Shown piece by piece: positions 10,069 through 45,449 of a stretch of DNA of 64,000 bases. Below the pieces are notes generated by a model. The model was not told where the DNA came from. It made no database searches and saw only the letters and a list, made by a program, of their open reading frames with translations. How positions within the stretch are numbered: the first letter of the stretch is position 1; every line of letters begins with the position of its first letter. Both the position numbers and the translations under genes were made by a program. Source of the stretch: Ilyobacter polytropus DSM 2926 (GTDB lineage: Bacteria; Fusobacteriota; Fusobacteriia; Fusobacteriales; Fusobacteriaceae); NCBI RefSeq assembly GCF_000165505.1, contig NC_014632.1:992001-1056000 (forward strand), written 5' to 3'.

Positions 10069-10140
10069 ATGAAACCAGATCTTAAAGATACTGACTTATT
10101 AACTCATTATTTTAAGGGGGAAGAATATGATTATAAGTAA
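10069..10140 (+). CDS. short upstream ORF overlapping the DUF2779 gene, 23 aa
   Basis: GATAGGAGT precedes the ATG at 10069. The 23-codon frame MKPDLKDTDLLTHYFKG continues across the start codon of the DUF2779 gene at 10127 and stops at 10138-10140. This arrangement suggests translational coupling or control. Confidence 0.35.
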   Translation: MKPDLKDTDLLTHYFKGEEYDYK

Positions 10141-11890
10141 GACTAAATTTATGAATTTTATGAAATGTGATAAATACTTTGAATATTTTAGAGCTGAAGA
10201 AGCCTCAAACCCATATAAGGAAGATAAAAATGAAAAATTTAAGGAGATATTATATAAGTTAGGAGAATCAGTCGATGAAGAAAATGGACTAAATGAGTTG
10301 GAAGCTATGATGCCTTATTATAATCAGGTAGAATCTGTAGCATCTGAGATCACAAAAAAGTACTTACCTGGAGAAGTACATGATAGAAGGAATCCCTATG
10401 GACAACGACTATTTGAAAAAGAATACGGAGAGAATAAGTATTTTTGCTATACAGATATTGTTGCTGAAACTGAAAATGATCTGAATATTCTAGAAGTTAA
10501 AGCCACCTCAAGTAGAAAATTTATGGACATGAAGTATAATAAGATTCCTATTTTTGAAAAAGGTGATGATAATGTAATAAGATTAAGAGAGACATCAAAT
10601 CCAGACTTATTACAGGATAAAAAATACATGAAACAAAGAGAAAAATTATTGGATTCAGGTGACAAAGTTGGTAAGTACTTTTACGACCTTGCATATCAGT
10701 ATTTTATTATTAACGGAACACCTGACAAAAGGACGAATTACTATCTCGCTGTGTTGAACCATGAATATGTTTTTGACGGTGAGTATAGTGATGATAGAAA
10801 TCCTATATATTCCCAAAATGAAGATGGGAATGAATTAATTACTTTTATAGATATATCTCCACTATTGAATGATTATGAAAAAAAGATAGAAGAAGACATA
10901 GAGTATTTAGAAGGCTTAATGGAAACAGAGGAGTTTGATAAACCTTATCTAGATGGAAGGTGTAGTGGCTGTGATTATGAAAGTCATTGCTGGAAGGATA
11001 TTCCAGAGAAGAATTCTATTCTGTCATATATAGGAAGCCATTATGGATTTGAAGATGATAGTGGAACTAAGAGACAACAATATGACCTATTGAATGAAGG
11101 GTATATTAACCTTTTGGATATTCCAGATTCTTGGTTAAAAAGAGAAAATAATATAATTCAGAGGAATGTTGTTGAAACAGGTGAAGCTTATACTAACAGA
11201 GAAAAAATAAAGGATGCTTTAGAAACCCTTAAATATCCACTTTATCACTTAGATTTTGAAACATTCCCTTGTCCTTTACCCAGGTTTAGAGGAGAGAAGC
11301 CATATAGTCAATCGGTATTTCAGTTTTCATTACATATAGAGAAAGAACCAGGGGTTTGTCATAAGGAAAAGGACCACTATGAGTTTTTAGCTGATTCTCA
11401 TAGTGATATAAGAGAGAATTTTATAAAAACTATGCTAGAGCATATTGACTTAGAAGCAGGTGGTAATGTTATCGTTTATAATCAATCCTTTGAAAAAACA
11501 AGGGTGAAGGAACTTGCTGAGATTTTTCCTAAGTACAAAGTGGATCTAGAGAAACTAAATGAAAAGATATTCGATCTGCTGTATATAGTGAAGACTAACA
11601 GTAACTTTTATAAGGGTTTAGGTTATAGTGATCCTGAAGCAAAGCTGTTTAATTATTATCATGAGGATTTAGATAGTTCCTTCTCTATAAAGAAGGTGTT
11701 GCCAGTGTTTAGTCCATTAAGCTATGAAGGGCTAGCTGTATATGACGGTGTACAAGCTATGCTGACCTATGCTGATGAAAACCTGTTAAAAGCAAAGCAA
11801 AAGGAATTAAAGGAGTATTGCAAGCAGGATACCTGGGCTATGGTTGAGATTTTAGAAGAGTTAAGGAAATTAGCAGATCAAAACCTTTAA
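10127..11890 (+). CDS. DUF2779 protein: Cas4-like nuclease fused to DEDD exonuclease
   Basis: A 587-residue protein with two visible parts. Residues 1-290 look like a PD-(D/E)XK nuclease of Cas4/RecB type: IISKTKFMNFMKC at the start, the ILEVKATSS strand near 125, and a cysteine cluster CSGCDYESHC at about 279-288 that could hold an Fe-S cluster with an N-terminal Cys. Residues 370-580 carry RNase H-like DEDD motifs: HLDFETF near 375, VYNQSFEKTRV near 450, and YCKQDTWAMVEIL near 563. This is the DUF2779 arrangement, often found near restriction or defence genes. The start follows AAGGGGGA. It is alone between two terminators, upstream of the R-M operon. A DNA-processing or defence role is inferred. 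Confidence 0.75.
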   Translation: MIISKTKFMNFMKCDKYFEYFRAEEASNPYKEDKNEKFKEILYKLGESVDEENGLNELEAMMPYYNQVESVASEITKKYLPGEVHDRRNPYGQRLFEKEYGENKYFCYTDIVAETENDLNILEVKATSSRKFMDMKYNKIPIFEKGDDNVIRLRETSNPDLLQDKKYMKQREKLLDSGDKVGKYFYDLAYQYFIINGTPDKRTNYYLAVLNHEYVFDGEYSDDRNPIYSQNEDGNELITFIDISPLLNDYEKKIEEDIEYLEGLMETEEFDKPYLDGRCSGCDYESHCWKDIPEKNSILSYIGSHYGFEDDSGTKRQQYDLLNEGYINLLDIPDSWLKRENNIIQRNVVETGEAYTNREKIKDALETLKYPLYHLDFETFPCPLPRFRGEKPYSQSVFQFSLHIEKEPGVCHKEKDHYEFLADSHSDIRENFIKTMLEHIDLEAGGNVIVYNQSFEKTRVKELAEIFPKYKVDLEKLNEKIFDLLYIVKTNSNFYKGLGYSDPEAKLFNYYHEDLDSSFSIKKVLPVFSPLSYEGLAVYDGVQAMLTYADENLLKAKQKELKEYCKQDTWAMVEILEELRKLADQNL

Positions 11891-13339: not shown

Positions 13340-16108
13340 ATGATTAATCAGAAACCTGAAGATCAAGCTAGGGATAATATAGATTTAATACTCAGAAGGT
13401 CAGGATGGGCTGTACAGGATAAAAAAAGTATAGACTTTAGTGCTGCCCAAGGAGTAGCCATAGCAGAATATCAAACAAGTACCGGACCAGCTGATTATGT
13501 TCTTTTTGTTGATGGTGATCCAGTAGGAGTTGTGGAAGCCAAGAGAGAAGAGGAAGCCCATAGATTAACTGAACATGAGGACCAGACTAAACGTTATATC
13601 AACAGTAAGCTCAAGTATATAAATAACGACACGCCATTGATTTTTGGGTATGAAAGCACTGGTGTAATAACACACTTTACTGACTATAGAGATCCGCTTC
13701 CAAGAGCCAGGGAGGTCTTTACTTTTCACAGGCCAGAAACAATGGCCAGATGGTTCAAGGAGGGAGAAAGTTTAAGAAAAAGTATCTTAAAGATGCCAGA
13801 GCTTAATGAAACTGGACTGAGAGATTGTCAGATTAATGCTATTGGAAATTTAGAAAGATCATTTAAAGACAATAAGCCAAAGGCCCTGGTTCAGATGGCA
13901 ACTGGAAGTGGAAAGACCTTTACTGCGGTAACTTCTATCTGGAGGCTGTTAGAGTCTACCAAGGCGAAGAGAGTATTATTTTTAGTAGATACCAAGAACT
14001 TAGGGGAGCAGGCTGAGTCTGAATTTATAACTTATTCTCCAGTTAATGAGAACAGGAAGTTCAGTGAGATATATGGAGTAAAAAGACTGAACTCTCCTCA
14101 TATCCCAAATGATAATCACGTATATATAAGTACTATCCAGAGGATGTACTCTATACTATCAAATAAGGAATTGGATGAAAGCGAGGAAGAGATCAATCCA
14201 AATGAGTGTGGCGAGGATTACAATAAAAAGGAACCTAAGGAAGTAGTTTATAATGAAAAACTTCCTGTGGAATATTTTGATTTTATAATTATAGATGAAT
14301 GCCATAGATCTATCTATAATGTCTGGAAGCAGGTTTTAGATTATTTCGATGCTTTTTTTGTGGGACTGACTGCTACACCGGATAATAGGACATATGCTTT
14401 TTTTAATGAAAATGTAGTAAGTGAGTATGACCATGAGGATGCAATCGCTGATGGAGTTAATGTAGGGTATGACACTTATTTAATAGATACAAAGGTATCA
14501 TTAGCAGGTGGAAAGTTAAAAGCTGAAGAAAATGTAGAAAAGAGAGAAAAGTTATCCAGAAAAAAAAGATGGACGCAGCTGGATGAAGATTTTGAGTATG
14601 ACAGAGCAAAACTTGATAAAGAAGTTGTCAATAAAAGTCAGATAAGAAATATTATTAAAGAGTTTAAAAGATCAATAGAAAAATAGATATTTCCGAAGAG
14701 AGAGGAGATTCCCAAAACACTTATATTTGCCAGAACAGACAGCCATGCTGAGGATATAATTGAGGTTGTAAGGGAGGAGTTTAATAAAGGGAATGAGTTT
14801 TGTAAGAAGATCACCCATAAGGCAAAGGAAGATGCTAAATCACTGCTGAGTTCCTTTAGAAATGATTATAATCCGAGAATAGCAGTAACTGTAGATATGA
14901 TTGCAACGGGAACAGATGTAAAGCCTCTGGAATGCCTTCTTTTTATGAGGGACGTAAGGTCTCGTAACTACTTTGAGCAGATGATAGGAAGAGGAACAAG
15001 GGTAATAGAACACGAGGCTCTTAGGAAGGTAACACCTTCAGCTGTGAGTAAAAATCACTTTATTATAGTGGATGCTGTGGGAGTTACAAAGTCTACTAAG
15101 ACAGATTCCAGACCTCTAGAAAGAAAGAGAGGGGTATCACTGAAGGAGCTGCTAAACGGGGTTCTTATGGGAGATACCAGCGAAGATACTTATCTGTCCC
15201 TTGCCAGCAGGCTATCAAGACTGGAGCAGGACATGACAGATAAGGAGAAGAAGGAATTTTGTAAGCATAGTAAGGATAAGCCTATAAATATAACTATACA
15301 TGATCTGCTGGATACTCACAATCCAGATAAGATTGAAGAGGAAGCTAGAAGGATCTTTGATACTGATATTAGTCAGGTGCCAGATGAAGATCAACTAAAG
15401 GAAGGAAAGAAGAGTCTAGGAAAGAAAGCCAGGATGAACTTCAATGGAAACCTTATTGAATACCTTGTGGGCTTGAAGAAGTCCAAGGAACAGATCATAG
15501 ATGAGAAAAATCTGGATGAGGTAATCTATTCAGGATGGGATAAGAATAGAAAAGATATCAGTAAAGAGGTTGTAGAGGAGTTTAAAGGATTCATAGAGGA
15601 AAACAGAGATGAGATTGCTGCACTGAGATTATATTATGATACTCCCTACAGAAGAAGAGAAGTAACCTTTGATATGATTAAGGAGCTTATGGAGATACTA
15701 AAGAAGGCAAAACCAAGGTTAGCCCCGCTAAATGTATGGAGGGCATATGAAGAGATAGAGGGAGCAGCAGGTAAATCTCCAAAGGATGAGTTAGTGGCCC
15801 TTGTATCCTTAGTAAGAAGGGTGTGTGGTATAGATGAGATACTCACACCATATGATAGCGTGGTAAATAGAAACTTTAAAAACTGGATATTTGATAAGCA
15901 CTCTGGAGCTAAGAGTAAGTTTACAGAAAAGCAGATGGAGTGGCTGAGGATGCTAAAGGATCATATAGCTACTTCATTCCATGTGGAGGTTGATGATCTG
16001 GAATATACACCGTTTATATCTCAAGGGGGGATAGGGGGGATGTATAATCTCTTTGGTGAAAATATGAATGATATAATAGATGAGTTAAATGAGGTGCTGG
16101 CTGCATAG
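13340..16108 (+). pseudogene. hsdR: type I restriction endonuclease subunit R, amber-interrupted
   Basis: The frame from 13340 (after AGGAGGTATGAA) to 16108 is open except for one in-frame TAG at 14684-14686. Part one (448 residues) has the nuclease PD..ExK motif (PADYVLFVDGDPVGVVEAK), Walker A (MATGSGKTF), IIDECHRS and GLTATP. Part two resumes in frame with IFPKREEIPKTLIFA and carries the helicase C motifs (MIATGTDVKPLECLLFMRD, then QMIGRGTR). The stop falls at a position normally occupied by an acidic residue before IFP, so one base change explains it. The product as it stands lacks helicase domain 2 and should not translocate or cut. Confidence 0.85.
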
Positions 16109-17676: not shown

Positions 17677-19145
17677 ATGACGGAAACTAATGCACTACTT
17701 ACCAAGGTTGATAATTTTTGTAATACACTAAGGGACGATGGAATAGGATATGGAGACTACCTGGAATAGCTTACCTATCTGATATTCCTAAAGATGGCTG
17801 ATGAGTATTCCAAACCACCATATAGAAAGGAATCTGGAATTCCTAATGAGTATAACTGGGAATCACTGAAAGATAAAAGCGGTATAAAATTAGAATCACA
17901 CTATATGACTGTCCTTAGAGAGTTAGGGAATAAGCCAGGTATGCTTGGACAGATCTTTACAAAGTCTCAAAATAGGATTCAGGATCCAGCAAAGTTATAT
18001 AAACTAGTTAAGATGATAGATGATGAAAGCTGGGTTATTATGGGGGCAGATGTAAAGGGGAATATCTATGAGGGACTTCTACAAAAATTTGCTGATGACA
18101 CAAAGAGTGGAGCGGGACAATACTAGCAGTAATTAAAGCTATGGTAGAATGTATGAAGTTGGAACCTAAAAAAACAATCTGTGATCCAGCATGTGGAACA
18201 GGAGGATTTTTCCTAGCTGCTTATGACTATTTATCGGATAACTACAGAATGAACAGAGAAGAGAAGGAGTTTCTAAAAAAGGAGACCTTTTTTGGAAATG
18301 AGATTGTTGCAAGTACAAGAAGGCTTGCGCTTATGAATCTATTCCTACATGGTATAGGTGAGATCACAGGGGAATCAGTGATATCTCCTAATGACTCACT
18401 TGTTTCAAGTCCTTCTAAAACTGTTGACTATGTGCTCGCTAATCCTCCGTTTGGGACAAAGAGCAGTATGACATTTACAAATGATGATAATAAAAAAGTT
18501 AAGGATGACCTTACTTACAACAGACAGGATTTCTGGGTAACTACGTCTAATAAGCAGCTAAACTTTATGCAACATATACATTCACTATTAAATAGCACAG
18601 GTAAAGCTGCAGTAGTAGTACCTGACAATGTGTTATTTGAAGGTGGAGCTGGTGAAACAATCAGAAAGAAGCTCCTCATGAATACAGAACTCCATACAAT
18701 ATTAAGGCTTCCTACAGGAATTTTCTATAAACAAGGGGTAAAGGCAAATGTACTTTTCTTTGATAATAAGCCTGCTGGAGAAGATGTAAAGACCAAGGAG
18801 ATATGGTATTATGACCTTAGAACTAATAAGCACTTTACTTTAAAGAAGAGTCCATTAAGCTTTAAAGATCTGGAGGATTTTATAAAGTGTTATAACCCTG
18901 AAAACAGGTTTGATAGAAAGGAAACCTGGTCTGAAGAAAACCCAGAGGGAAGATTCAAAAAGTTTTCCTATGAAGAGATTGCTGAGAAGGATAAGACCAG
19001 TCTGGATATCTTCTGGATTAAGGATAAGAGTTTGACAGACCTTGATAACCTTCCTGCTCCTGAGGTGCTAGCTGGAGATATTATAGAGAACATAGAGGCT
19101 GCCCTAGAGAGTTTTAAGGAGATCAATGATTTTTTAGAGGATTAA
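17677..19145 (+). pseudogene. hsdM: type I DNA methyltransferase subunit M, amber codon plus small deletion
   Basis: The ATG at 17677 is 2 bases after the hsdS stop. The frame reads GIGYGDYLE, then TAG at 17767-17769 where the family has Gln (CAG), then LTYLIFLKMADEY. A second break occurs at 18121-18126: after SGAGQY the family continues FTPR, but here about 10 bases are missing and the frame shifts, resuming as VIKAMVECMKLEPKKTICDPACGTGGFF (residues listed here in two pieces: VIKAMVECM and CDPACGTGGFF). NPPF is present in VLANPPFGTKS. The family is N6-adenine methyltransferase. With two lesions, the loss looks real rather than a single sequencing slip. Confidence 0.85.
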
Positions 19146-19229
19146 AATAATATGATGTTAGAGGCTCTGAAATGGGCCTCTACTTAGTTTTTGCAATGAA
19201 TTTTAGAATGATATAGAGGGGGGAAGTAT

Positions 19230-19919
19230 ATGAGCAATACAGAGAAGTTTGAGGATGGAGCAGAGCGTGCAGGAAAATATTTAGCAACAGCAACTACATT
19301 TGTAAATCCTGTTGCAGGGATGTTGTTATACGGAGGAGTTGAGTTAGCCTCATATTTAAATAAGTTTGCCCAAGATAGAGTAAATGGAAGAAATGAAAAG
19401 ATGCTTAAATTTTTAGAAGAACTTAATAGTTTCATTGGAAAAGAAATTAAAGATATAGATGATCCATTTTTAGAGGGAGAGTATTTCAATGATGTTCTAG
19501 AGAAAGTGTTAGTAAAAGCTAGTAGTTGTAAAACTCAATATAAAAAAGATGTGTTTAAGAAGATAATAAAGGATGAGATTACTGCGAAAACTGAGATAGA
19601 CTTTTCTTCATCATACCTAAATATAATCAGTGAACTTCATGGAGAAGAGATTGAGATATTAAAATATATAAGACAAAATCAAACTCCAATAAATACTAAT
19701 AGTATGGAGGACTGGGTAGAAAAGGAAAAACTTAGAGATTATTTAGATGGAATTAAAGGCTTAAACCAAGCTTATAGTAAAGAGAACTTTGAAGTCTATT
19801 TATATAATCTAATCTATAAGGGATTATTGGTCAGTGCTTCAATGAATGGAAACGATCCTTTGAGGACAACCATTTTAGGAGAGAGATTGATGGAGTATAT
19901 AGAGGGGGAAAGGATCTAA
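19230..19919 (+). CDS. unknown protein of the R-M locus, 229 aa
   Basis: The protein is not recognised with certainty. A GAGGGGGGAAG ribosome site sets the start. Residues 20-45 form a hydrophobic helical stretch (FVNPVAGMLLYGGVELASYL) that could insert in or associate with membrane. The middle is helical and charged, and the last 90 residues (YLYNLIYKGLLVSASM, then TTILGERLMEYIEG) look like a winged-helix end as seen in DUF4393/Abi-alpha-like proteins, which is a guess. It lies 84 bases after hsdM and 40 bases before the zinc-ribbon/HEPN gene, and both frames are clean while hsdR and hsdM are broken. Confidence 0.55.
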   Translation: MSNTEKFEDGAERAGKYLATATTFVNPVAGMLLYGGVELASYLNKFAQDRVNGRNEKMLKFLEELNSFIGKEIKDIDDPFLEGEYFNDVLEKVLVKASSCKTQYKKDVFKKIIKDEITAKTEIDFSSSYLNIISELHGEEIEILKYIRQNQTPINTNSMEDWVEKEKLRDYLDGIKGLNQAYSKENFEVYLYNLIYKGLLVSASMNGNDPLRTTILGERLMEYIEGERI

Positions 19920-19959
19920 GAATCACAGAAAGAAAATTTTGGTATAGGGGGAACTAATT

Positions 19960-21288
19960 ATGACTGTTAGACAAATTATAGAATGTAATTATTGTGGGAC
20001 TAAAACCTTGACTAGAACTATAATGGGTTTTATTGAAAACGTTCCTTTGAGAGTTCCATGCTGTGGATGTGGCGTAGTTTTAAGAGGAACTCTAACCATG
20101 ATTCCAGAAGATGTTGATTATAGAATAAAGTTTAGTAACGCAAAATTAGTTGGAAGTAGTGAGGGAGAGCCAGAATATACTATTGAACTCTCAGGAGAGC
20201 TAATGACTAAAAAGGTAGAGAAATATGAATTTGCTACTTCTCTTATTTCACCTGTTATTAAAAATCTGATGTTTCACGGAGCTTTAACTAAGGGGAAAAA
20301 TAATATTGAAGATTTCAAGTTTAAATTTAAATCATTAATTGGTGATAGGTCTAAGGAATGGCAAACTTTAAAAGATGTCGAAGATCTATGGAATAATAGG
20401 AATTATAAAATCATTAAGAAAGTTATCAGTTCGTTTCCCGAATTTGAATACCTTAAGGAAATCTCTGATGATTATAAAAACATAGAGTTAGAAGCATTTA
20501 ATTTAAAAAATATTTCCTTTTCAACTATTATTACCCAAATTACTCCTAATGATTTCGCTGAAAAAAGAAATAATTTAGAAGATCAAATAAGCCTCTCTTT
20601 AAATAACCCGAATAAACTTTATTCTTTAATTATTGAGAATAAAGAGAGCTGCGAAGAACTCCAAAAAAAACTTTTTAGTCAAATAGGGAAAATTGTAGAA
20701 CGTTTTGAGAATTTAATTCCAATCTTTGGGTTAAAGTATCTTGGAGATATGGAGGATAATTTTTTTGACAATAAAGGAATTACTACAGTTACTTTTGAAG
20801 AGATAAAAGATATTTATATAGATAATTACGAAGTGATACTATCTTGTAGTGATATAGTAATAGCTATAGATAATTTAATAATAAATAATGATTTTAATAA
20901 TATGCAAGTAACTGGAGCCTCAAAAACGAAAACTTTATCAAAATATAGAAAACTATCCAACGGACATAAACTTAACTTCATAAATGAGAATGAAAGCTAT
21001 TTTAATAAACTTCTTGAAAGCGATCTTGACAAAGAAATAAGGAATTCAATAGGCCATAATTCTTATTCATTTGATAGTGTTAGCCAAAATATAACTTTCA
21101 AAAAAAATAATGGTTCAAGTAAAAAAATGTCTTTAGTACTTTTTTTAATGAAGTTATGGGACAGCTTCATAACATGTTATAATCTTTGGTACTTTTATAA
21201 AGAACTCAATAAACTACGTATAATACTCTCTCTGCCATTAAGTACAAAAGAACTAAATAGGTTTATAAGAGATTATTCAATAAGATAA
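19960..21288 (+). CDS. zinc-ribbon protein with C-terminal HEPN-like R-x4-H motif, 442 aa
   Basis: The start follows TAGGGGGAAC. Residues 9-37 form a four-cysteine zinc ribbon (C9-x2-C12, C34-x2-C37). The middle 250 residues are mostly helical and not recognised. Near the C-terminus DKEIRNSIGHNSYSFD has Arg361, Asn362 and His366, the R-x4-H (R-N-x3-H) motif of HEPN RNases, followed by a helix with aromatic residues. HEPN proteins are common RNA-cleaving effectors in abortive infection and toxin-antitoxin systems. The position at the end of a restriction island, after a possible membrane partner, fits a defence role. Both fold and function need testing; the motif alone is short. Confidence 0.55.
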   Translation: MTVRQIIECNYCGTKTLTRTIMGFIENVPLRVPCCGCGVVLRGTLTMIPEDVDYRIKFSNAKLVGSSEGEPEYTIELSGELMTKKVEKYEFATSLISPVIKNLMFHGALTKGKNNIEDFKFKFKSLIGDRSKEWQTLKDVEDLWNNRNYKIIKKVISSFPEFEYLKEISDDYKNIELEAFNLKNISFSTIITQITPNDFAEKRNNLEDQISLSLNNPNKLYSLIIENKESCEELQKKLFSQIGKIVERFENLIPIFGLKYLGDMEDNFFDNKGITTVTFEEIKDIYIDNYEVILSCSDIVIAIDNLIINNDFNNMQVTGASKTKTLSKYRKLSNGHKLNFINENESYFNKLLESDLDKEIRNSIGHNSYSFDSVSQNITFKKNNGSSKKMSLVLFLMKLWDSFITCYNLWYFYKELNKLRIILSLPLSTKELNRFIRDYSIR

Positions 21289-21302
21289 ATTATGTTAATG
21301 TT

Positions 21303-21332
21303 AAAAAGACACCCAAATATAGGGTGTCTTTT
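21303..21332. terminator. terminator at the right end of the island
   Basis: AAAAGACACCC pairs with GGGTGTCTTTT around a short A/T loop, and works on either strand. It lies between the zinc-ribbon/HEPN gene and the tldD stop and belongs to the element. Confidence 0.8.
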
Positions 21333-21342
21333 AACATTATTA

Positions 21343-35113: not shown

Positions 35114-35443
35114 ATGAAAAAGGGACTAATTATTTTATTTGCTGCAGGTTTACTTGCTGCATGTACTTCAACTGAACCAATGGACGCACAGGCAGGAGCT
35201 TCACTTAACAGAGCTGATACAATCGCTAAGTATGACGCACTATCAGCAAAAGTAGATGCTATCGCATCTAATCCAGATGCAACTCCAGAAGAATTTGCTG
35301 CAGCACAAGCTGAAGTAAAAGAATTTATGGATTATCTAAATTCTTACAAAGCATCTGCTTCTCCAGGAGCACAAAAATATATTGAAGACTACAATAAAAC
35401 ATTGAGCGGATCACGAATTTTCAAATCTTCTCCTAGTAAGTAA
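35114..35443 (+). CDS. small lipoprotein, first of a tandem pair
   Basis: A 109-residue lipoprotein. The signal peptide MKKGLIILFAAGLLAAC ends in the lipobox LAAC, with the lipidated Cys at residue 17. The rest is alanine-rich and helical (ADTIAKYDALSAKVDAIA, then PEEFAAAQAEVKEFMDYL), likely a coiled coil or helical hairpin. The second copy begins 419 bases later and is nearly identical over the first 92 residues, diverging only at the end. Function is unknown; a surface or periplasmic structural role is likely. Confidence 0.75.
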   Translation: MKKGLIILFAAGLLAACTSTEPMDAQAGASLNRADTIAKYDALSAKVDAIASNPDATPEEFAAAQAEVKEFMDYLNSYKASASPGAQKYIEDYNKTLSGSRIFKSSPSK

Positions 35444-35532: not shown

Positions 35533-35862
35533 ATGAAAAAGGGACTCGTTATATTATTTGCTGCAGGTTTACTTGCTGCATGTACTTCAACTGAACCAAT
35601 GGATGCACAGGCAGGAGCTTCACTTAACAGAGCTGATACAATCGCTAAGTACGATGCTCTATCAGCAAAAGTAGATGCTATCGCATCTAATCCAGATGCA
35701 ACTCCAGAAGAATTTGCTGCAGCACAAGCTGAAGTAAAAGAATTTATGGATTATCTAAATTCTTACAAAGCATCTGCTTCTCCAGGAGCTCAATCTTATA
35801 TTGATGAGTATACTGGTACGTTAGGAGAATCTTATATCTTTAGAAGAGATAGAAACGACTAA
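35533..35862 (+). CDS. small lipoprotein, second of a tandem pair
   Basis: A 109-residue near-copy of the preceding lipoprotein, with the same signal peptide and lipobox (LAAC, Cys17) and the same residues up to SASPGAQ. The tail then changes to SYIDEYTGTLGESYIFRRDRND. DNA identity is very high over the first 280 bases, including silent positions, so duplication or gene conversion is recent. Its own ribosome site is ATGGAGGTAA. Confidence 0.75.
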   Translation: MKKGLVILFAAGLLAACTSTEPMDAQAGASLNRADTIAKYDALSAKVDAIASNPDATPEEFAAAQAEVKEFMDYLNSYKASASPGAQSYIDEYTGTLGESYIFRRDRND

Positions 35863-35902: not shown

Positions 35903-36643
35903 TATTATAGAAAAAGAAAACCACCTGCTCTGCAGGTGGACCCAAAATGCCGGAAGGCTATGCGTATAAAATAGAAAACCTCCTTTGATATAATCAACTT
36001 AGGTTTGCCGACCAGTTGAGATACAAAAGGAGGTTTAAATGGATAGTAATAGTTTAGCACACACAAGATGGAATTGTAAATATCACATAGTCTTTGCACC
36101 TAAGTACAGGAGAAAAGTAATCTATGGAAAGATAAAGCAAGATATTGGGCAAATACTTAGAAAACTTTGCGAGAATAAAAAAGTAGAGATACACGAAGCA
36201 AGCGCATGTAAAGATCACATACATATGCTTGTGAGCATACCGCCTAAATTGAGTGTATCTAGTTTCATGGGGTATTTAAAAGGAAAAAGTTCATTAATGA
36301 TATTTGATCGACATGCAAATCTAAAATATAAGTATGGAAACAGGCACTTTTGGTGCCGCGGATACTATGTAGATACAGTAGGTCGTAACAGGAAAAGGAT
36401 CGAAGATTATATTAGAAATCAGTTGCAAGAAGATATTGCAGAAGATCAATTAACATTGAAAGAATATATTGATCCTTTTACTGGAGGTAAAGTAAAAAAG
36501 AGCTAGAAACAAAGAGCTACTTGAGTAGCTAAATGAAATATTACGCGGTTGGCAAACCGTTCAGAAGGGCTTCAGCCCAATGCTGGAAAAGCGCCCTTCT
36601 AGGGCATGAGCAAACTACCACTTGAAGTGGTAGTTTTGATTTT
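35898..36643 (+). mobile_element. IS200/IS605-type element, copy 1
   Basis: A 746-bp segment recurs as an inverted copy at 44704-45449. The ends have no classical inverted repeats; instead there is a subterminal hairpin on each side (CCACCTG..CAGGTGG at about 35921-35939 and ACCACTTGAAGTGGT near 36618-36632), as in IS200/IS605 elements. Both copies begin in the T-run of a terminator. Confidence 0.85.
36039..36506 (+). CDS. tnpA: IS200-type TnpA transposase (copy 1)
   Basis: A 155-residue single-strand transposase of the HUH Y1 family. It shows NCKYHIVFAPKYRRKV, the metal-binding HUH motif DHIHMLV near residue 64, FWCRGYYVDTVG near 105, and the catalytic tyrosine in EDYIRNQ near 127. Length is normal and identical to copy 2 at 44841. 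Ribosome site AAAGGAGGTTT. No accompanying tnpB is present. Confidence 0.9.
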   Translation: MDSNSLAHTRWNCKYHIVFAPKYRRKVIYGKIKQDIGQILRKLCENKKVEIHEASACKDHIHMLVSIPPKLSVSSFMGYLKGKSSLMIFDRHANLKYKYGNRHFWCRGYYVDTVGRNRKRIEDYIRNQLQEDIAEDQLTLKEYIDPFTGGKVKKS

Positions 36644-44703: not shown

Positions 44704-45449
44704 AAAATCAAAACTACCACTTCAAGTGGTAGTTTGCTCATGCCCTAGAAGGGCGCTTTTCCAGCATTGGGCTGAAGCCCTTCTGAACGGTTTGCCAACC
44801 GCGTAATATTTCATTTAGCTACTCAAGTAGCTCTTTGTTTCTAGCTCTTTTTTACTTTACCTCCAGTAAAAGGATCAATATATTCTTTCAATGTTAATTG
44901 ATCTTCTGCAATATCTTCTTGCAACTGATTTCTAATATAATCTTCGATCCTTTTCCTGTTACGACCTACTGTATCTACATAGTATCCGCGGCACCAAAAG
45001 TGCCTGTTTCCATACTTATATTTTAGATTTGCATGTCGATCAAATATCATTAATGAACTTTTTCCTTTTAAATACCCCATGAAACTAGATACACTCAATT
45101 TAGGCGGTATGCTCACAAGCATATGTATGTGATCTTTACATGCGCTTGCTTCGTGTATCTCTACTTTTTTATTCTCGCAAAGTTTTCTAAGTATTTGCCC
45201 AATATCTTGCTTTATCTTTCCATAGATTACTTTTCTCCTGTACTTAGGTGCAAAGACTATGTGATATTTACAATTCCATCTTGTGTGTGCTAAACTATTA
45301 CTATCCATTTAAACCTCCTTTTGTATCTCAACTGGTCGGCAAACCTAAGTTGATTATATCAAAGGAGGTTTTCTATTTTATACGCATAGCCTTCCGGCAT
45401 TTTGGGTCCACCTGCAGAGCAGGTGGTTTTCTTTTTCTATAATAAAAAG
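44704..45449 (-). mobile_element. IS200/IS605-type element, copy 2 (inverted)
   Basis: This is identical in extent (746 bp) to copy 1 but on the opposite strand. As in copy 1, its left end begins in the T-run of a terminator (45443-45472, read on the minus strand). Only the flanking bases differ. Recombination between the two copies would invert the 8.1 kb between them. Confidence 0.85.
44841..45308 (-). CDS. tnpA: IS200-type TnpA transposase (copy 2)
   Basis: 155 residues, identical in sequence to the copy at 36039, with the same DHIHMLV HUH motif and EDYIRNQ tyrosine. It is complete with an AAAGGAGGTTT ribosome site, so both copies could supply transposase. The perfect identity implies a recent transposition. 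Confidence 0.9.
   Translation of the reverse strand: MDSNSLAHTRWNCKYHIVFAPKYRRKVIYGKIKQDIGQILRKLCENKKVEIHEASACKDHIHMLVSIPPKLSVSSFMGYLKGKSSLMIFDRHANLKYKYGNRHFWCRGYYVDTVGRNRKRIEDYIRNQLQEDIAEDQLTLKEYIDPFTGGKVKKS

Follow-up and report, generated by a model that had tools for sequence, protein, structure and literature searches.

Do the two closely spaced genes that follow a type I restriction-modification (R-M) operon in Ilyobacter polytropus form an undescribed two-gene defence system, as a first-pass annotation of the locus proposed? By the window we denote the whole analyzed stretch of 64,000 nucleotides, and all positions given without a further label refer to it. On balance, we cautiously favour a different reading, namely that gene 1 and gene 2 are two intact, probably independent single-gene defence modules which lie side by side in a strain-variable island next to tldD. 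The features on which the discussion draws are the following (coordinates, strand, description and basis):

19159..19182, + strand: terminator-like hairpin after hsdM with a 9-pair stem and a T-rich tail, which parts the R-M operon from gene 1 (consensus scan)
19230..19919, + strand: gene 1, predicted diverged AbiAlpha (Abi_alpha/DUF4393) protein of 229 aa (PF14337, PDC-S47, hhalign)
19539..19832, + strand: segment of gene 1 (residues 104-201) to which PF14337 aligns (Pfam match)
19960..21288, + strand: gene 2, undescribed zinc-ribbon, predicted HEPN protein of 442 aa without the SEC-C tail (PHROG 13366, full-length relatives)
19984..20070, + strand: putative zinc ribbon of gene 2, Cys9, Cys12, Cys34 and Cys37 (conservation in alignment A6; weak Pfam zinc-ribbon matches in relatives)
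20641..21231, + strand: predicted HEPN region of gene 2, approximately residues 228-424 (helix order of the AlphaFold model of relative L049, transferred via alignment A6)
21040..21057, + strand: RNSIGH, R361-H366, the predicted active-site motif of HEPN (six-column block with the strongest conservation in the family)
21299..21336, no strand assigned: inverted repeat that separates gene 2 from the convergent tldD and is a likely terminator (sequence reading)

The description of two clean, closely spaced genes was borne out. Both frames are intact with exactly the boundaries listed and are separated by 40 bp, and a G-rich, ribosome-binding-like stretch is located 5' of each. If only base composition is considered, frames this long would stay open with a probability of approximately 1.5e-10 for gene 1 and 1e-19 for gene 2. 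Because the hairpin and the inverted repeat flank the pair, the two genes appear to form a small transcription unit separate from their neighbours. Taken alone, the hairpin is weak, as the consensus terminator scan revealed two sites where 1.1 were expected in shuffles. An Rfam search at the locus found no family.

For gene 1, the first-pass annotation suspected a membrane-like protein and overlooked a match to a known family. Averaged over 19 residues, the Kyte-Doolittle value of the hydrophobic segment at residues 20-45 does not exceed 1.08. The usual transmembrane level on this scale is approximately 1.6, and 'membrane-like' is thus unsupported. The gene matches Pfam family PF14337 with an E-value of 2.3e-6 (28.2 bits, 0.8 bits below the curated cut-off of 29) and the PADLOC candidate defence family PDC-S47 with an E-value of 1.1e-5, and hhalign against seven other PF14337 members gave 92.5% (E 4.9e-7). 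Judged by these sequence comparisons, gene 1 is a diverged member of an already known family, and we are highly confident that it encodes an AbiAlpha/DUF4393 protein related to AbiAlpha.

AbiAlpha itself, EF2833 of prophage 6 in E. faecalis V583, is a single gene that suffices for abortive infection, in which lysis is premature (PMC6356687). Gene 1 resembles it in size (229 aa versus 272 aa in EF2833), fits the family profile and aligns with members over most of its length. It differs in being diverged, as the shortfall against the PF14337 cut-off indicates, and in its location: E. faecalis AbiAlpha is prophage-borne and works alone, whereas gene 1 resides in a non-prophage island beside gene 2. 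Close relatives of gene 1 occur in two of 98 genomes of the phylum, the window genome counted, and the closest homologue, encoded in genome G055, shares 43% identity. Plasmid searches with gene 1 and with this homologue revealed no relatives, and tblastn against phages gave no convincing relatives of either gene. A PF14337 match in genome G020 was discarded as spurious, since it falls inside an 887-aa ORF.

Gene 2 carries Cys9, Cys12, Cys34 and Cys37 as well as R361-N-S-I-G-H366. Comparison with its relatives upholds the two motifs that had been read from this protein, a four-cysteine zinc ribbon and an HEPN-type RNxxxH motif. The four cysteines are near-invariant in alignment A6, among relatives of about 25-29% identity, with the exception of the copy in L053, whose N-terminus appears broken, and several Pfam zinc-ribbon models match the relatives weakly (best E 0.0017). 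R361, N362, I364 and H366 are invariant in 13 of 13 aligned family members, and no other six-column block of the protein is as well conserved among these as RNxIxH.

HEPN proteins are defined by an Rx4-6H motif with a polar residue after the arginine, placed in a four-helix domain in which the motif ends helix 3 (PMC3710099). While the AlphaFold model of the window protein is poor (pLDDT 45), the model of relative L049 reached a pLDDT of 78.9 and a pTM of 0.78. In the latter, a beta-rich N-terminal region is followed by a helical middle, two long helices (221-250 and 269-299), an insert, a helix at 343-351 that holds R346 and ends at H351, a small sheet, and a helix at 376-407. This model places RNxIxH at the end of the third helix, which fits the arrangement in HEPN RNases. 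Like these RNases, gene 2 has an invariant Rx4H with N after R, which is predicted to close helix 3 of a late helical domain (PMC3710099). It differs from them in its N-terminal zinc ribbon, in the SEC-C tail of its relatives, and in showing no significant profile or fold match to the named HEPN families.

As to the structural check that had been suggested for the HEPN assignment, the relative's model is topologically consistent with HEPN, but Foldseek with the gene 2 family model returned no significant match of any kind and hence no HEPN structure. The window protein also lacks a significant match to HEPN profiles, and PDB sequence and profile searches gave no usable match. PF18736 matches one of the 13 family members (E 0.01) and not the window protein, and SUKH models give weak matches to this same region in some relatives. 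These results would fit a gene 2 product that serves defence or a mobile element but has a different fold, with RNxIxH as a metal-binding or structural motif rather than an HEPN active site. However, the negative sequence results say little, because the verified HEPN RNase Tha also fails such comparisons: in our controls, hhalign between Tha and the HEPN protein pEK499_p136 reached only 0.5%, and Tha-2 matches no Pfam family. Moreover, the motif, its position and the helix order all fit HEPN. We regard another fold as rather unlikely, and gene 2 as a probable HEPN protein, a prediction that draws on the modelled relative.

Among characterized HEPN proteins, Tha, the tail-activated anti-phage protein of S. 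aureus prophages (PMC11087260), resembles gene 2 in motif and architecture. A C-terminal RNSIMH in Tha-1 corresponds to RNSIGH in gene 2, and each is a single gene whose product begins with a region of unknown fold. In contrast, no zinc ribbon is reported for Tha, and the two fall into different PHROGs. Membership of gene 2 in Tha was rejected (hhalign 0.1-0.2% and blastp E 0.22 versus Tha-1/Tha-2). The RNxxxHF motif of pEK499_p136 (PF18736) likewise aligns with gene 2, but this protein is a stand-alone HEPN of 166 aa and has no significant homology to gene 2.

The distribution of gene 2 was studied in 98 genomes of this phylum and in samples of other phyla. Within the phylum, the gene is restricted to the window genome (1 of 98); a weak match in genome G016 was rejected, as it lies in an ABC transporter ORF. 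Full-length relatives with 22-29% identity are found on Enterococcus and Lactococcus plasmids and in genomes of Clostridia and Bacilli. By tblastn, 24 plasmid records with relatives were obtained with the window protein as query and 29 with a relative as query, and a profile search contributed nine further family loci from Clostridia and Bacilli genomes. A shorter relative of 308 aa has the C-terminal half of the family and SEC-C in common with it (hhalign 99.2%). The SEC-C motif (PF02810) ends most relatives and is absent from the window copy. Because a first wide profile search was swamped by this short tail, wide searches for the family were conducted with SEC-C-trimmed alignments.

The window protein of gene 2 has no family match in Pfam, NCBIfam or PADLOC 2.0.0. 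PHROG 13366 covers its residues 1-414 (E 1.2e-12) and covers the relatives as well; it carries no functional description. No description of the family as a defence gene was found in the family libraries (Pfam, NCBIfam, PHROG and PADLOC in its 2023 release) or in the part of the literature that was covered. As far as these sources show, the family is undescribed as a defence gene and would add one more HEPN variant. Across mobile elements of Enterococcus, Lactococcus and Clostridia, its members presently bear no label other than 'SEC-C domain protein'. If the family is indeed an HEPN RNase, it would be a further RNase module that is widespread, consists of a single gene, includes a zinc-ribbon region and has an active site open to direct testing.

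Gene 2 relatives reside in plasmid or mobile-element contexts, where they adjoin recombinases, relaxases and Fst toxins. Furthermore, the relative in L053 adjoins a Shedu SduA gene and that in L048 a C5 DNA methylase gene. Scans of viral contigs with both families yielded one contig only, apparently representing the same region as L053. At L053 6702-7952 and L080 3714-4964, the Shedu SduA gene is located directly upstream of the gene 2 relative. In the Shedu-adjacent relative, N-terminus and SEC-C tail look broken.

We regard a defence function, which the first-pass annotation had proposed for the two genes, as rather probable: gene 1 matches the AbiAlpha family, and gene 2 relatives are found near Shedu and a DNA methylase. 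Alternatively, both genes might serve the maintenance of a plasmid or island instead of phage defence, as the recombinases, relaxases and Fst toxins beside gene 2 relatives would suggest. This is unlikely in our view: abortive infection has been demonstrated for the family that gene 1 matches, gene 2 relatives adjoin Shedu and DNA methylase genes too, and such mobile elements commonly carry defence genes.

If both genes act in defence, they would most likely do so at the cost of the infected cell. The product of gene 1, if it behaves like E. faecalis AbiAlpha, may stay silent until phage infection and then cause the infected cell to lyse early or die. The product of gene 2 could be a dormant RNase whose N-terminal zinc ribbon and helical region sense an infection cue, whereupon the HEPN domain at the C-terminus, probably in dimeric form, would cut RNA via R361 and H366, and growth would stop. 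RNase activity, phage trigger and cell death are steps that we infer.

It remains to ask whether the two genes belong together. Their co-occurrence elsewhere had been named as a test of the two-gene system, and they were not found together: in none of the 16 records checked, with partial genome coverage, does an AbiAlpha gene lie beside a gene 2 relative. Of these records, which are genomes or plasmids that carry a gene 2 relative, 15 lack a PF14337 match altogether, and the remaining one, G392, has its match elsewhere. Conversely, no AbiAlpha locus inspected in other genomes contains gene 2, and an RNxxxH neighbour is seen in G055 only, where a 150-aa ORF with RNCYEH (L009 191-643) is located upstream of the gene 1 homologue at a distance of 168 bp. 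No Pfam or other family matches this ORF, which shows no detectable similarity to gene 2 and is HEPN-like in its motif only. The absence of the pairing in 16 of 16 records, together with the AbiAlpha relationship of gene 1, speaks against an undescribed two-gene system. Gene 1 and gene 2 are likely independent of each other, and the simplest reading is that of two independent single-gene modules gathered in a defence island, while the 40 bp spacing and the shared terminators fit a functional pair too. That the AbiAlpha-like protein controls the downstream zinc-ribbon HEPN RNase as its antitoxin, sensor or partner, the two forming a genuine two-component, newly coupled abortive-infection system of which the G055 arrangement is an echo, appears quite improbable, for the tight spacing, the own terminators and the G055 neighbour that speak for it are set against gene 2 relatives without adjoining AbiAlpha, other inspected AbiAlpha genes without such a neighbour, and a G055 ORF that resembles neither gene 2 nor any family. 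For work on the AbiAlpha mechanism, a diverged member next to an RNase-like gene offers a useful test case.

The two genes are located in a strain-variable island adjoining tldD, as revealed by comparison with two genomes of the same genus, G042 and G043. From a point at approximately 3.8-4.7 kb up to 21.38 kb, the window has no match in G043, which contains other, shorter DNA at this site, and in G042 the same tldD-side junction holds a prophage, with phage structural genes followed by a type ISP restriction-modification gene. The island also carries a serine recombinase and transposase pieces. Thus, the site beside tldD looks like an integration hotspot for mobile and defence genes.

The R-M operon upstream of gene 1 is broken, as had been noted. 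The hsdR gene is interrupted by a single in-frame TAG (14684-14686) and has no other lesion, hsdM contains one in-frame TAG (17767-17769) and a frame change near 18123, and the hsdS frame is open. Because these lesions are few, the contrast between a dead R-M operon and live neighbours is weak evidence for selection on gene 1 and gene 2. The genomes searched yielded no close homologue of either gene usable for a selection test. Like hsdR and hsdM, a TldE/PmbA-like paralogue just upstream of the window (L092 2003-3361) has one in-frame TAG. In all three genes, plain nonsense mutations are the likeliest explanation, because 11 of 56 ORFs here also end in TAG as their regular stop codon.

Further features were observed in the window. 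Within the island, the protein encoded at 10127-11890 has 587 aa and contains a DUF2779 domain (PF11074, E 5e-39). Two tandem, near-identical lipoprotein-like ORFs of 109 aa are located at 35114-35443 and 35533-35862. Finally, two copies of an IS200-type transposase-like ORF of 155 aa, identical over the 40 residues compared, map to 36039-36506 and 44841-45308.
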